From positions 1 through 28,079 of the forward strand of contig CAJMLF010000025.1 of the NCBI GenBank assembly GCA_905214235.1: a stretch of 28,079 bases of DNA. Direction: 5' to 3'. The first letter of the stretch is position 1. Each line of letters opens with the position of its first letter. Source of the DNA: an uncultured bacterium (GTDB taxonomy: Bacteria; Bacillota; Bacilli; Lactobacillales; Lactobacillaceae). The notes beneath the pieces were generated by a model. That model saw nothing but the letters and a program-made list of their open reading frames with translations, had not been told where the DNA came from and searched no databases. Of the stretch, positions 10,399-27,556 are shown piece after piece. A program made the translations under genes and the position numbers.

Positions 10399-10416
10399 TG
10401 TCCTTGTTATGAAGCA

Positions 10417-10511
10417 AATTCCCGATAGGATTCACAAGGACCCCTTGTGAAGATGCCTTGTAACCGCAACTACAAAACTAATGTTAAGTTTCGACTAGAA
10501 CATGGGGGAAT
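10417..10511 (+). ncRNA. SAM-III (SMK box) riboswitch
   Basis: The conserved blocks of the SMK box are all here in order: TTCCCGATAGGAT, a hairpin with arms TTCACAAGG / CCTTGTGAA, GATGCCTTGTAACCG, a 37-base linker, and GGGGGAA, which is the metK ribosome site. SAM binding pairs ATTCCC with GGGGGAAT and hides the site, giving translational feedback on SAM synthetase. Found in Lactobacillales only, so it also helps place the organism. Confidence 0.95.
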
Positions 10512-10519
10512 TAATAAAA

Positions 10520-11707
10520 ATGACAGAAAAACACCTATTTACATCCGAATCAGTTTCCGAAGGGCACCCAGATAAGATTGCCGATCAAATCAGTGATGCC
10601 ATTCTTGACGCCCTGCTGGAAAAGGATCCAGATGCACGGGCGGCCGTTGAAACTTCAGTAACGACTGGGTTAGTCCTGGTCTTCGGTGAAGTTTCCACCA
10701 AGGCTTACGTTAACATCCAAAAGGTGGTTCGTAATACAATCCGCAAGATTGGTTACACCGATGGCAAGTACGGCTTTGACGCCGATAACTGTGCCGTAAT
10801 CACCTCGCTGGACGAACAGTCACCCGACATTGCCCAAGGGGTTGACGATTCACTGGAAACCCGTGAAGGGGATGCTGACCCGCTCGACAAGATTGGGGCC
10901 GGTGACCAGGGACTGATGTTTGGTTACGCAACCGACGAGACGCCTGAATACATGCCACTGACGCTGATGCTCAGCCACAAGCTGATGCAACGGATTGCCA
11001 AGCTCCGCAAGGAAGGGACAATTTCCTACTTACGTCCGGATGCCAAGGCCGAAGTAACGGTTGAATACGACGATAACGACAAGCCCCTGCGGGTGGACAC
11101 GGTGGTCTTAAGTACCCAACACGACCCCGACGTTACCCTGGACCAGATTCGTAAGGACGTGAAGGAACAAGTCATCAAGGCCGTCATCCCGGCTGACCTG
11201 CTTGACGACAAGACCAAGTACTTCATCAACCCAACCGGCCGCTTTGTCATCGGTGGTCCCCAAGGGGATGCCGGTTTGACGGGTCGGAAGATCATCGTTG
11301 ATACTTACGGTGGTGCTGCTCACCACGGTGGTGGGGCCTTCTCCGGTAAGGATGCCACCAAGGTTGACCGGTCGGCTAGTTACGCCGCCCGTTACATTGC
11401 TAAGAACCTGGTTGCTGCTGGCTATGCCAAGAAGCTGGAAATTCAGGTTGCTTATGCCATCGGGGTTGCCGAACCGGTTTCCATCTCCATTGACACCTTT
11501 GGGACGGGTACCCGGACCGAAGCGGAACTGATTGCTGCTGTCCGGAAGGTATTTGACCTGCGTCCAGCTGGGATCATTAAGATGCTAGACCTCAAGCGGC
11601 CAATTTACGAACAAACGGCGGCTTACGGTCACTTTGGCCGGACCGATGTTGACCTGCCTTGGGAACACCTGGACAAGGTTGATGAACTGAAAAAGATTTT
11701 AGGTTAA
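10520..11707 (+). CDS. metK: S-adenosylmethionine synthetase
   Basis: 395 residues, the usual length. Makes SAM from ATP and methionine in the cytosol. Signatures: [18 protein letters not shown] at the N-terminus, [12 protein letters not shown] (ATP-site hexapeptide region) and [16 protein letters not shown] (P-loop-like). The ATG at 10520 follows the riboswitch ribosome site by 11 bases. An in-frame ATG at 10502 overlaps the regulatory G-run and is not a credible start. No clear terminator follows, so some transcripts may run into the leuS leader. Confidence 0.98.
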
Positions 11708-11763
11708 TCTAGTGGCCCCCTTGCAAAAAGGCAGGGAGGACGTTAGAATACAATTAATATTTT

Positions 11764-11992
11764 TGATCGTGATAGAAGTAGTAGTTAACAGTGTGACTTT
11801 TAGAGACCTGCTGGTGGTGGAAAGTAGGAGGGCACGGTTAATGAACTCGTCTAGAAGATTGCTGCTGAATTGAGTAGGTAGTGACGTCTGCCGCGTTAAG
11901 GTCTTAAGTGCTATGGGTGACCATAGAAAACGGGTGGTACCGCGGATTAGATTTCGTCTCGTCGAAGCAAGGGCTTCTGCGGGACTTTTTTA
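11764..11992 (+). ncRNA. T-box leader of leuS
   Basis: Full T-box architecture: stem I start (GTGATAGAAGTAGTAG), the conserved GCTGGTGGTGGAAAG apical region, a specifier CTC (Leu) at 11846-11848 in TGAACTCG, and the T-box GGGTGGTACCGCG at 11932-11944. The terminator follows at 11956-11992 with arms GTCTCG..GAAGC / GCTTC..CGGGAC and a T-run. Uncharged tRNA-Leu pairs with the specifier and UGGU and prevents termination. The stretch from the metK stop to about 11760 holds a possible TACAAT -10 at 11749 without a good -35. Confidence 0.95.
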
Positions 11993-18996: not shown

Positions 18997-19025
18997 AAGT
19001 GTATCAATTAAGTGGGGGTGTCAAT

Positions 19026-19523
19026 ATGACTTATCAAAAGATTTTAGTAGGAATTGATGGTTCTAAGCAGGCCGACATGGCATTTGACAAGGCTGTCGAG
19101 ACGGCCAAGCTGAACAAGGCTCAGTTGTACTTGCTCAGTGTGATTAATGGTGAAAAGATTCCATCTGGCGGCCCGAACGGCTACAGCCTTGTTGACCGGA
19201 GCATCTACCAGCCGGCAATTGATACGATGGAAAAGCGGCTGAATGAATACAAGAAGAAGGCACAGGCTGCCGGTATTACCAACGTCGTTACCGAAGTCAA
19301 GGTTGGTAACGCTAAGTTAGAGCTGGCCGAAAACTACCCAAAGAATAATGGTATTGACCTAATTGTCATTGGGGCAACTGGTTTGAACATGATTGGGCGG
19401 CTGATCGTTGGTTCCACGGCTGCGTACACTATTCGGGAAGCCCCTTGCGATGTCACCGTTGTTAAGACGGATAAGGACAATAAAAAGGTTGACCTGAAGA
19501 AGAACAGCTACTTAGAAATTTAA
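19026..19523 (+). CDS. Universal stress protein (UspA family, ATP-binding type)
   Basis: 165 residues. YQKILVGIDGS at the N-terminus and the nucleotide motif G-x2-G-x9-GS (GATGLNMIGRLIVGS) near 120-136 indicate the ATP-binding subclass. Lysine-rich C-terminal tail. GGGGGTG lies about 6 bases before the ATG at 19026; the open frame extends 9 codons further up through that site and is rejected. Role in stress survival is known for the family; the trigger here is unknown. Confidence 0.92.
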   Translation: MTYQKILVGIDGSKQADMAFDKAVETAKLNKAQLYLLSVINGEKIPSGGPNGYSLVDRSIYQPAIDTMEKRLNEYKKKAQAAGITNVVTEVKVGNAKLELAENYPKNNGIDLIVIGATGLNMIGRLIVGSTAAYTIREAPCDVTVVKTDKDNKKVDLKKNSYLEI

Positions 19524-24942: not shown

Positions 24943-25182
24943 ATGAAAGCTGAATATTTAATAAAGGTCATTTTGCCACCGTTCATTATTTTTGCCGTCC
25001 TGGTTGCTTTGACCATTGCCAAGCTAATTTCGGGCTGGTTGATGTATGCCCTATGGATTGTTGGCTTTATCGTTGCAAACCTGATTGTGACGCGGTATAC
25101 CGCTAAGCAGACCTATCAACGACGGAAGGAAATCCGCTTAAAGGAGGAAAAAAAGCAGAAAAATGAAGATCAAGGAGACTAA
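24943..25182 (+). CDS. Small two-segment membrane protein
   Basis: 79 residues; family not recognised. Two hydrophobic segments (VILPPFIIFAVLVALTIAKL and LMYALWIVGFIVANLIV), then a strongly charged cytosolic tail (RRKEIRLKEEKKQKNEDQ). GAAGGGAGAAAGCAG before the ATG is a good ribosome site. It starts 25 bases after the regulator and overlaps the CPBP gene by 20 bases, so the three are one operon. Confidence 0.75.
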   Translation: MKAEYLIKVILPPFIIFAVLVALTIAKLISGWLMYALWIVGFIVANLIVTRYTAKQTYQRRKEIRLKEEKKQKNEDQGD

Positions 25183-25843
25183 GCTGGGGGACTTCCTTTA
25201 CCGGGTGGGCCTCTTCCTCGTTTTCTATGTCCTTATTCAAACGCCCCCCATGGCGATAGCAATTGCTAACCGGCGGCCCGATAACCAGGGAGTGGCAATC
25301 GTGATGTCTAGCCTGTTCGTGTTAATCTTTTTGTTCATTATCGACCGAGCCAGCTACGTCTTTCACCAGTATAACCAGCTGCCCCAAAGGGCCGGGATTA
25401 AGGTTGGTGCAATAATTGGTGGCTATCTTGCTCTGATGGTCGGGATGATGTTTTTCTCCTGGCTCAACCAAGTAATTTTCCACCAGAGCGGGACGGCGAA
25501 TAACGAGTTAATTCGACAGATGCTGGACCATAACAGGTTAGTGACCGGTGTATTTGTAATCTCTTCCTTTACCCTGACTCCGGTTGCCGAGGAGTTGATT
25601 TTTCGGGGGATCTTAACCAACCTTTTCTTCAAGCCGACGCGTTTTTGGCCCAAAATTATTTTGTCCGGGATCGTTTTCTCATCAGCCCACGCCAGCACAA
25701 CAATCGTGAGTTTTCTCCTCTACTGTTTTATGGGGATGGTGCTGGCCTATGTTTACCGGAAGACGGGAAACATTAAGAACAGCATGCTGATTCACGCCCT
25801 AAATAACGCGGTTGCCATCTCTGCCTTGTTGCATACAATTTAG
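25163..25843 (+). CDS. CPBP-family intramembrane metalloprotease (CAAX/Abi-like)
   Basis: 226 residues, about six to seven membrane segments. All three family motifs: EELIFR (E143, E144, R148), FSSAHAS with H176, and HALNNAVA with H211. Members cleave prenylated or other membrane proteins; in lactic acid bacteria several are bacteriocin-immunity proteins. The start overlaps the upstream gene by 20 bases; AAAGGAGG is about 15 bases upstream, a little far, so translational coupling is likely. No terminator follows before the next promoter. Confidence 0.88.
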   Translation: MKIKETKLGDFLYRVGLFLVFYVLIQTPPMAIAIANRRPDNQGVAIVMSSLFVLIFLFIIDRASYVFHQYNQLPQRAGIKVGAIIGGYLALMVGMMFFSWLNQVIFHQSGTANNELIRQMLDHNRLVTGVFVISSFTLTPVAEELIFRGILTNLFFKPTRFWPKIILSGIVFSSAHASTTIVSFLLYCFMGMVLAYVYRKTGNIKNSMLIHALNNAVAISALLHTI

Positions 25844-25856
25844 TTTAAAAAGATGG

Positions 25857-25871
25857 TTGCAACCGCTTACA
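25857..25871 (+). promoter_or_regulatory. cre site (CcpA) over the -35 box of the candidate RNA
   Basis: TTGCAACCGCTTACA matches WTGNAANCGNWNNCW at every position and the stricter TGWAANCGNTNWCA with one mismatch. It covers the -35 hexamer, a placement that gives CcpA repression when preferred sugar is present. Confidence 0.8.
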
Positions 25872-25885
25872 AGTGGTGGTATATT
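25857..25885 (+). promoter_or_regulatory. Strong promoter of the candidate RNA
   Basis: TTGCAA, 17 bases, TATATT with TGG before it (extended -10). It starts 14 bases after the CPBP stop codon. Confidence 0.8.
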
Positions 25886-25888
25886 AAA

Positions 25889-26215
25889 GATGTGGAAGGA
25901 AAGAAGAAAAGAGATCATGATCCGTCATGAAGATCTCCCACGATGTAAGGAGCCGAAGGACATAAGGAGTAGGCAGAAGCAACGTAAGAGTGACCAATAG
26001 TATTGGTAAAGTTTATGAAGTGAGTCAGGTCACCAGGGTGCGCTTTACACATGGTTTATAAAATGCGACTTTGTGGAAGATAGAATCAAAATGTTAGGTA
26101 ATTAATCAGTTCCAGAGCAAAGTGGCGAGATTCCTTCCGTATAGCCGGGGGATAAAGCTCCCCGTGCACAATTAAGTCCCCAGGATTTGGGTTAACCAAG
26201 TTCTGGGGACTATTT
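25889..26215 (+). ncRNA. Candidate CcpA-controlled structured RNA, about 330 nt
   Basis: No protein gene of credible form occupies this stretch. It starts from an extended -10 promoter and ends at a strong terminator. Visible folding: GGAAGGAA (25894-25901) pairs with TTCCTTCC (26131-26138), closing a domain of about 240 nt. Inside are a hairpin with arms GAGATC..ATGA / TCAT..GATCTC and a TCCG loop (25911-25937), GTGACC/GGTCAC (about 25990-26033) and CGC-TTTA/TAAA-GCG (about 26041-26067). CGGGG/CCCCG follows outside (about 26146-26164). Two TAAGGAG copies lie in an unpaired-looking part. It lacks the signatures of RNase P RNA, tmRNA, SRP RNA and T-box. It could also be a long leader for the YbjQ-like gene, but that gene has its own -10. 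Confidence 0.6.
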
Positions 26216-26220
26216 GTTTG
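26175..26220 (+). terminator. Terminator of the candidate RNA
   Basis: AGTCCCCAG / CTGGGGACT with inner TTGG/CCAA, then ATTTGTTTG. Confidence 0.85.
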
Positions 26221-26239
26221 GTTAATAAAGGGAAAAGCT

Positions 26240-26248
26240 TGTTATACT
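26240..26248 (+). promoter_or_regulatory. Extended -10 of the YbjQ-like gene
   Basis: TGTTATACT directly after the RNA terminator; -35 weak. Only about 27 bases before the GTG start. Confidence 0.4.
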
Positions 26249-26274
26249 GGATGGTAAGAAGGGGATGGGGTCGA

Positions 26275-26556
26275 GTGTTTTTATCAACAGAGAATTATCC
26301 ACAGGCGCACCGAATCTTAGGGATTGTTAACGCAACGGGTCACCTGATGCTGACCAGTGACGCAATCGATGCTTTTGAATCTATGGACCAGCTCTTTGAT
26401 GAGGTCAAGGAGAAGATGAAGGAACGGGCCGAAGCTAAGGGGGCTGACGGAATCGTCAATATTCGTTTTAATACGAACGTCGCCAATGTCCAAGTGGCAC
26501 CGCGCTTCTTAGTGTTGACCGGTTACGGGACAATGATTCAACGGGTGAAAGCGTAA
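26275..26556 (+). CDS. YbjQ/UPF0145-like small protein, GTG start
   Basis: 93 residues from GTG 26275. The pattern ILGIVNATGHLMLTSDA, then KEKMKERAEAKGADGIVNIRF, and a closing beta segment LVLTGYGTMIQ fits the YbjQ family (DUF74), pentameric proteins proposed to bind heavy metals; function is not established. AAGGGG and a second GGGG lie upstream of GTG. The open frame extends 19 codons further up through the promoter and is rejected. It overlaps nothing and ends before a shared terminator. Confidence 0.75.
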   Translation: MFLSTENYPQAHRILGIVNATGHLMLTSDAIDAFESMDQLFDEVKEKMKERAEAKGADGIVNIRFNTNVANVQVAPRFLVLTGYGTMIQRVKA

Positions 26557-26604
26557 GAGAAAAATGGAACATAAAAGGAGACACTTATCGTCTCCAAAGA
26601 AAAC

Positions 26605-26660
26605 AAATAAGCCTTCAGTGTTCATGACTAATGCCGGCACTGAAGGCTTTATTGTACTTT
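26605..26660. terminator. Bidirectional terminator YbjQ-like/potassium channel
   Basis: AATAAGCCTTCAGTG / CACTGAAGGCTTTATT around an 18-base loop. A small extra hairpin GGAGAC/GTCTCC lies just before it at 26577-26595. Confidence 0.8.
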
Positions 26661-26702
26661 CCGTGTTTCATCTAATTTATTGAGCTTATGCCACAACCCC
26701 AC

Positions 26703-27419
26703 TTATTTATTGCGTTCTTCTTTCAAGAGTTTACGGACTTCTGCTTGGAGCTCCCGGTTTGATTTTTCGAGATCGCTTAACTTGTTTAAGACGGTTGCCA
26801 TCCGGTCGTTGGTGTGGTCCTGGATGAAGAAATTAGTCAGGGAACTAGTAAGGACCCCGACAAAGCCGATTCCAATCACCATTAACAGGATTGCGGCAAG
26901 CTTACCGAGAAAGGTATGGGGCGAAATATCTCCGTAACCAATTGTGGTGGCGGTTGCGATGGTCCACCATAGTGATTCGCCGTAAGGAACATGCTCACTG
27001 ATTGAGTACATCGAGGCACTGACAATCAAAATAGCGATACTGGTGTAGATGATGTATATCAGGCCGTTGATCTTTAGCAACCGGTTGAGTTTACCGGTAA
27101 GCCCGATGAGACGGACAAGGCGGAAGACAACGACGAGCCGCCCAATGCGGGCAAACCGGAAGAGGTTAAAGGAGGCACTGACTGGGATGATCGACAGGAG
27201 GTCAAAAATATTTTCCTTAAAGAACTTTTTCTTGTCCTTGGCGAGGAAGAGGCGGGCAAAGTAATCAATGGTAAAGATGATTAAGATGGCGTTATTTAAC
27301 AATTCGGGGTAGCCATGGTTGATATCAATGACCGACCCGTAGCTAAGGACAATTAGGATAATCGAAATGATGGCGAGCACCGCCATAAATACTTCATAGA
27401 TTTTCTGGTTAGTTTTCAT
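26703..27419 (-). CDS. Voltage-gated-type potassium channel
   Basis: 238 residues. Six membrane segments with the selectivity filter TIGYGD at 159-164. S4 carries spaced arginines (RFARIGRLVVVFRLVRLIG), so it is of the Kv type rather than a two-segment channel. The C-terminal tail (about 205-238, ATVLNKLSDLEKSNRELQAE) is a heptad-like coiled coil, probably for tetramer assembly. GGGGG lies about 7 bases before the ATG at 27419; a GTG four codons earlier overlaps that site. It follows a tRNA gene and terminator without a clear promoter of its own. Confidence 0.93.
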   Translation of the reverse strand: MKTNQKIYEVFMAVLAIISIILIVLSYGSVIDINHGYPELLNNAILIIFTIDYFARLFLAKDKKKFFKENIFDLLSIIPVSASFNLFRFARIGRLVVVFRLVRLIGLTGKLNRLLKINGLIYIIYTSIAILIVSASMYSISEHVPYGESLWWTIATATTIGYGDISPHTFLGKLAAILLMVIGIGFVGVLTSSLTNFFIQDHTNDRMATVLNKLSDLEKSNRELQAEVRKLLKEERNK

Positions 27420-27435
27420 TATTTCCCCCACGTAC

Positions 27436-27466
27436 GAAAAAAGCCCGGTAGAAAAACTACCGAGCT
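27436..27466 (-). terminator. Terminator of tRNA-Leu
   Basis: Minus strand AGCTCGGTAG / CTACCGGGCT around TTTTT, then six T residues. Confidence 0.85.
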
Positions 27467-27472
27467 AACTGA

Positions 27473-27556
27473 TGCCCCAAACAGGATTCGAACCTGTACA
27501 TGGAAACCCATACAACGACCTGAACGTTGCGCGTCTGCCAATTCCGCCACTGGGGC
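27473..27556 (-). tRNA. tRNA-Leu, anticodon CAG
   Basis: 84 nt class II tRNA: acceptor GCCCCAG / TTGGGGC with discriminator A, D-arm GGAATTGGCAGAC, anticodon stem CAACG/CGTTG with loop TTCAGGT, long variable arm, and T-arm ACAGG-TTCGAAT-CCTGT. CCA is not encoded. Reads CUG. Confidence 0.97.

Follow-up and report, generated by a model that had tools for sequence, protein, structure and literature searches.

The locus considered here raises the question of what is encoded between a CPBP-like protease gene and a YbjQ-like gene in a window (the whole stretch of DNA analysed) of 28,079 nucleotides from a member of the Lactobacillaceae. The first-pass annotation, made from the sequence alone, had read this gap as a stand-alone small RNA gene lacking a credible protein frame, driven by a near-ideal promoter with a cre site over its -35 box and closed by a strong terminator. 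Between the two genes come first the cre/-35 and extended -10 elements, then approximately 285 nt in which no frame is credible, and last the terminator; the features of the locus are, in order:

25163-25843, + strand: CPBP/Rce1-like protease gene (PF02517, by Pfam), the preceding gene
25857-25885, + strand: promoter, with -35 box TTGCAA (25857-25862), a 17-bp spacer and extended -10 element TGGTATATT (25877-25885; hexamer TATATT), read from the sequence and scanned
25858-25871, + strand: cre-like site TGCAACCGCTTACA over the -35 box, matching 13 of 14 positions of TGWAANCGNTNWCA
About 25890-25892 to 26216, + strand: predicted RNA, its start placed by the distance from the -10 element and by a conserved GNGG at the start of helix P1, its end past the terminator
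26175-26211, + strand: intrinsic terminator, a 16-pair stem followed by ATTTGTTTGG (terminator scan)
26243-26248, + strand: possible separate -10 element of the YbjQ-like gene, TATACT, read from the sequence
26275-26556, + strand: YbjQ-like gene (PF01906, by Pfam), the next gene, with a GTG start at 26275 and lying outside the RNA

The predicted RNA is approximately 325 nt long, or approximately 250 nt when the terminator region is not counted. The CPBP-like protein of the window shares 93% identity with its counterpart in Limosilactobacillus panis DSM 6035, and the RNA stretch shares 98% identity with that strain, which places the window in a Limosilactobacillus near L. panis. L. oris DSM 4864 likewise has a copy of the gene. 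Two other RNA elements lie elsewhere in the window. A SAM-III (SMK box) riboswitch (10407-10522) precedes a metK-like gene, and a leuS-like gene is preceded by a T-box leader (11754-11964), both genes being named by eye.

Promoter, cre site and distribution among genomes

The hexamers of the window promoter match at 9 of 12 positions and are accompanied by the TG extension. In the region 25000-27500, promoter-like sites number 4 compared with 3.3 +/- 1.8 in shuffled sequences, which is not above chance, and terminators number 6 compared with 2.8 +/- 1.5. As the promoter pattern alone is at chance level, comparison across genomes has to decide. For this comparison 47 promoters were scored, comprising the window and 46 further loci (39 from Limosilactobacillus and seven from a second genus), with one decayed copy (L063) left out. 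Scored against TGWAANCGNTNWCA, which we take to be the cre consensus, a cre-like 14-mer is present at the -35 position in all 47 promoters, with 12-14 of 14 positions matching; the best upstream scores are 14 of 14 in 17 promoters, 13 in 27 and 12 in three. In shuffled 210-nt sequences (single-base shuffles), a score of at least 13 arises in 166 of 20000 and of at least 12 in 1947 of 20000.

It is conservation that raises the observation above chance, the cre-like site recurring in every one of the scored promoters. The fuller pattern of cre site, TG and -10 element is found at 44 of the 46 loci, the exceptions being L024 and L028, each with an altered -10. The cre-like site at the -35 box, both read and scanned, is borne out, as is the strong terminator after the promoter; 'near-ideal' was a generous description of a promoter with nine hexamer matches plus the TG extension and a site count no higher than in shuffles. 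At one locus (L054, genome G005) the -10 element is weaker (TGATACAGT), the core is altered (AGAATCAACG) and P6 contains TTTGCAGAAG; this copy is perhaps drifting.

A cre site that overlaps the -35 box points to repression; cre sites may also mediate activation. The same layout at the 6S RNA genes of lactic acid bacteria (LAB) is interpreted as likely inhibitory in PMC8414754.

A blastn search with 25844-26145 gave matches in 38 of 50 genomes of the genus Limosilactobacillus, and covariance models added G004 and G015, such that homologues are present in 40 of the 50, one of them decayed. Two covariance models were used, R1 built from 29 sequences and R2 from 28 sequences including five of the second genus. 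R1 gave matches in 11 of 151 family genomes, and R2 in 28 of 397 (20 Limosilactobacillus, seven others and G181), and in 395 genomes of the order R2 gave six matches, all found before and G181 included, with no further convincing copy; these large searches used stricter filters with 6 candidates scored each, and weak distant copies may be missed by them. The seven others all belong to a single second Lactobacillaceae genus, probably Paucilactobacillus to judge by that genus's kinship and number of species, and represent seven of the seven genomes of that genus searched. Collections of phages and plasmids gave no match to the RNA.

Two sets of candidates were discarded. G181 (29.1 bits at E 1.3e-4 and 27.6 bits at E 2.8e-4) has, by eye, no such promoter, P1 strand or core, and single-mismatch matches to the promoter pattern in G105, G133, G138, G223, G229, G260 and G329 were taken as chance.

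In 10 of the 50 Limosilactobacillus genomes no copy was detected by blastn, R2 or the promoter pattern, the last of which is not fully sensitive since it misses G038, which has a copy. The RNA is consequently either dispensable or was missed in incomplete assemblies. The decayed copy in G015 (L063, about 1450-1700) has an unrecognisable promoter and cre site and lacks parts of the fold, with changes to the core and to the P5 partner strand, which suggests that some species can lose the gene.

Predicted fold and covariation

The folding energy of 25891-26216 is -100.3 kcal/mol, with z = -5.2 relative to shuffles, to which the terminator hairpin contributes. The consensus structure, imposed on the window sequence, has an energy of -98.7 kcal/mol compared with a free minimum of -101.2 kcal/mol, the pseudoknot not being counted. 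The predicted helices are as follows:

25891-26141, + strand: helix P1 closing the RNA, 25891-25898 with 26134-26141 (from the alignment and the window fold)
25911-25937, + strand: variable hairpin P2 (inverted repeat I4), its sequence differing between species
25941-26052, + strand: helix P3, 25941-25950 with 26043-26052, of which seven of ten pairs form in the window
25952-25974, + strand: hairpin P4, GCC/GGC, 25952-25954 with 25972-25974 (89.7% of alignment cells paired)
25975-26041, + strand: helix P5, 25979-25981/26039-26041 and 25990-25995/26028-26033 (96-100% of cells paired), its core largely invariant
26065-26126, + strand: helix P6, 26065-26074/26117-26126 and 26075-26078/26110-26113 (98.9% and 97.4% of cells paired)
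26083-26133, + strand: predicted pseudoknot, GAATC 26083-26087 with GATTC 26129-26133 (95.2% of cells paired)

Across a 29-sequence alignment covering eight helices, the pseudoknot included, 92.3% of cells are paired and both sides change in 18 of 48 pairs. The covariation score is 0.214, compared with 0.109 +/- 0.006 in shuffled alignments (none of 500 as high) and at most 0.085 with slid partners; the number of further pair types in this alignment is not above shuffles (135 of 500). A 28-sequence alignment that includes five sequences of the second genus gives, for 35 nested pairs, 93.4% of cells paired and a covariation of 0.330 compared with 0.146 +/- 0.009 (slid partners, at most 0.102), and none of 500 shuffles reaches it on any of the five measures, this alignment being one fitted to the structure. 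A MAFFT alignment of the core misplaced P3 and was kept out of the modelling.

The helices contribute unequally to this signal. P3 provides most of all the exchanges, with changes on both sides in nine of its ten pairs, yet only 78.4% and 84.0% of its cells are paired in the two alignments. P4 changes from GCC/GGC to GUC/GAC in L022 and L040. For P1, seven or eight of the eight core pairs form in all 46 testable copies, a count biased upward by the choice of the best-fitting partner (in L061 a stretch too far downstream was picked by the script, and the right one also gives eight pairs), with G-C/A-U and A-U/C-G exchanges between copies; in the window, GGAAGGAA (25894-25901) can also pair with TTCCTTCC (26131-26138). 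The pseudoknot hardly varies, with changes on both sides in one of five pairs, and is more weakly supported than the other helices. Taken together, the models predict a P1-closed, multi-helix structure with a likely pseudoknot.

The most invariant bases are those of the AGAAGCAACGTAAG strand (25975-25988) and its P5 partner loop, and those of the P6 motif TTTGYGGRAG, which reads TTTGTGGAAG in the window and of which similar forms occur in 44 of the 47 copies. The internal loop of P5 is conserved and in the window reads ACGTAAGA / CAGGG.

Downstream of the fold, a terminator-like hairpin lies within approximately 65 nt of the end of P1 in 38 of the 47 copies as judged by script, and was seen by eye in eight more (L017, L018, L021, L022, L036, L042, L054 and L061). 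The sequence of L016 ends before both the terminator and the P1 partner, neither of which can be judged there.

The stretch between P1 and the terminator differs between copies. A GC-rich hairpin lies there in the window (approximately 26144-26167) and in L. panis-like copies (L004, L007), and by eye it was not seen at this place in most others; L020, L021, L022 and L036 have an extra hairpin (TGAGGAAG ... CCCTCA) between the RNA and the terminator, and with it one more copy of GAGGAAG, also by eye.

Mode of action

We consider it likely that the locus encodes a stand-alone, CcpA-repressed, structured RNA acting in trans. When a preferred sugar is present, CcpA together with HPr-Ser-P would occupy the cre site at the -35 box, thereby blocking RNA polymerase; once the sugar is exhausted, the RNA would be made and accumulate, ending at its own terminator, fold into the P1-closed multi-helix structure with the likely P6 pseudoknot, and act in trans. 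As to how it might act, we tentatively favour a protein partner bound through the P5 internal loop, which is conserved, and the P6/pseudoknot region, because most invariant bases lie there and not in an open single-stranded seed.

The main rival to protein binding assumes the same promoter but another way of acting. It holds that the RNA is a CcpA-repressed base-pairing sRNA of the RsaI type, in which a CU-rich stretch (CTCCCAC in the window) located between P2 and P3 pairs with Shine-Dalgarno regions. RsaI of Staphylococcus aureus is described in PMC9266662 and PMC8383071 as a CcpA-repressed RNA with an unpaired CU-rich sequence acting on Shine-Dalgarno regions. It is a stand-alone RNA that responds to glucose shortage, which the new RNA, with its cre-like sites, may resemble; by analogy RsaI is the closest functional precedent for the new RNA. 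Segments resembling CCTCCC follow P2 in many Limosilactobacillus copies, as seen by eye, and would suit such pairing. Against it, P2 takes up part of this segment in pairing, and by eye the segment is absent from L031, L032 and L033, where the sequence is not C-rich, such that it is not kept throughout the copies, and most invariant bases belong to the structured core. The Rfam family of RsaI, presumably RsaOG, gave no match to the window RNA or to 15 homologous loci by cmscan. We regard pairing of this type as a credible but doubtful account.

Unlikely, in our judgement, is a further proposal in which the RNA represents a new class of large structured bacterial RNA made in sugar shortage, and not an antisense sRNA, its P5 loop and P6 pseudoknot binding RNA polymerase, the ribosome or a metabolic protein so as to adjust growth, perhaps by way of two conformations. 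The last element is suggested by a GGAAG that occurs twice, in P1 (25894-25898) and in P6 (26075-26079), a single 3' CTTCC (26134-26138) being able to pair with either copy. Two conformations formed through the duplicated GGAAG are possible in the model; the fifth pair of P1 shows an exchange that favours P1 over the GGAAG copy in P6.

Neighbouring genes, coding potential and known RNA families

The two genera have different genes beside the RNA. Upstream, a CPBP-like gene is present at 39 of 39 Limosilactobacillus loci (further off in L006 and L008) and at none of the seven loci of the second genus. In four of those seven the upstream gene was named by Pfam: L039 and L040 each have an alpha-acetolactate decarboxylase, L042 has a PLD-domain protein, and L064 has a protein with a periplasmic-binding-protein domain; by eye, the upstream genes of L041, L058 and L062 resemble the decarboxylase. 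A YbjQ-like gene lies downstream at 24 of the 39 Limosilactobacillus loci, and of the other 15, L014 and L016 have less than 250 nt of downstream sequence. In L026 the YbjQ-like gene is approximately 1 kb further from the terminator than in relatives, as after an insertion, and the RNA gene is intact.

Since the neighbours differ between the genera and the promoter, fold and terminator stay, the RNA is its own gene, as had been proposed. This bears on the notion that the element is a leader or riboswitch controlling the YbjQ-like gene by termination, which we consider improbable: the frequent presence of that gene downstream would fit, but L031-L033, L038, L055 and L057 have the RNA, promoter and terminator with no YbjQ-like gene in the available downstream stretch, the second genus has other neighbours, terminator sequences vary between species (by eye), and the YbjQ-like gene has a possible -10 element of its own. 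A transcript continuous into the YbjQ-like gene had been named as evidence against a separate RNA; at the sequence level, a terminator precedes that gene.

Comparison with all 4227 Rfam families by cmscan gave no match to the window RNA at gathering score. The low scorers at E up to 10 within 25800-26300 were mir-5583 (16.0 bits, E 8.9) and mir-3473 (15.3 bits, E 2.9), both far below their gathering scores and set aside. The RNA of 15 homologous loci, searched in the same way at E up to 1, also gave no match, and the Rfam hit that had been named as counter-evidence is thus absent. A model for Lacto-usp (RF01710) gave no match either, but its controls were also silent, and the result is uninformative. 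We found no description of the RNA in the open literature, mostly at the level of titles and abstracts, nor, by genus-name search, in the discovery papers PMC11109978, PMC8632094 and PMC6429828, and it may be in print elsewhere.

A diverged 6S RNA (ssrS, RF00013) deserves separate consideration, and we judge it very improbable. In PMC8414754, 6S RNA is reported in more than 91% of the LAB genomes searched, as a stand-alone RNA gene which in about a third of LAB species has a cre site over its -35 region; the Rfam 6S model, moreover, finds nothing in six of nine Limosilactobacillus genomes or in three of five of the second genus (G052, G148 and G122), which would leave room for a divergent form. 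Opposed to this, G173 and G091 (two of 11 genomes) as well as G008, G017 and G009 have a 6S RNA at another place, and all five carry the new RNA, and the 6S model gave no match to the RNA in the window (E up to 10) or in the 15 loci (E up to 1). The fold differs too, 6S being a rod with a central bulge and the window RNA a branched, covarying structure with a P3/P5 arm, P6 and a likely pseudoknot. The 6S gene usually, although not always, lies by rarA and/or uspA, whereas the window RNA adjoins CPBP-like and YbjQ-like genes. Further hallmarks of 6S RNA are that it binds RNA polymerase and serves as template for pRNA. A Usp-like gene (18999-19523, named by eye) lies 6 kb from the window RNA.

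SR1 of Bacillus subtilis, to which the RNA had been likened, was given in the annotation as an example of a CcpA-controlled small RNA. SR1 encodes a peptide and pairs with mRNAs, and the comparison is a loose one: both would be small RNAs, but no frame is conserved in the new RNA. Each of the seven stop-free segments of at least 20 codons in the window is open without frameshift in at most two of 28 aligned homologues and broken in 26, which upholds the reading of the gap as free of a credible protein gene. That the transcript, like the dual-function SR1, serves as mRNA and encodes a conserved small peptide is therefore scarcely credible, despite a 27-codon ATG frame inside a 62-aa TTG frame at 25812-26000.

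On the evidence at hand, which is comparative and drawn from genome sequence, the putative RNA is a new family of Limosilactobacillus and one related genus; it is close in logic to the CcpA-controlled 6S and RsaI RNAs and matches neither. RNAs of large size whose core is conserved and covaries usually have a specific task, and the conserved cre site ties this one to sugar status in a form kept by 40 of 50 Limosilactobacillus genomes and by all seven of the second genus. As a single gene outside coding sequence it lends itself to clean deletion in food bacteria that are harmless, and its partner would be directly testable. The new RNA would be an addition to the carbon-controlled RNAs that belongs neither to 6S nor to any catalogued family.
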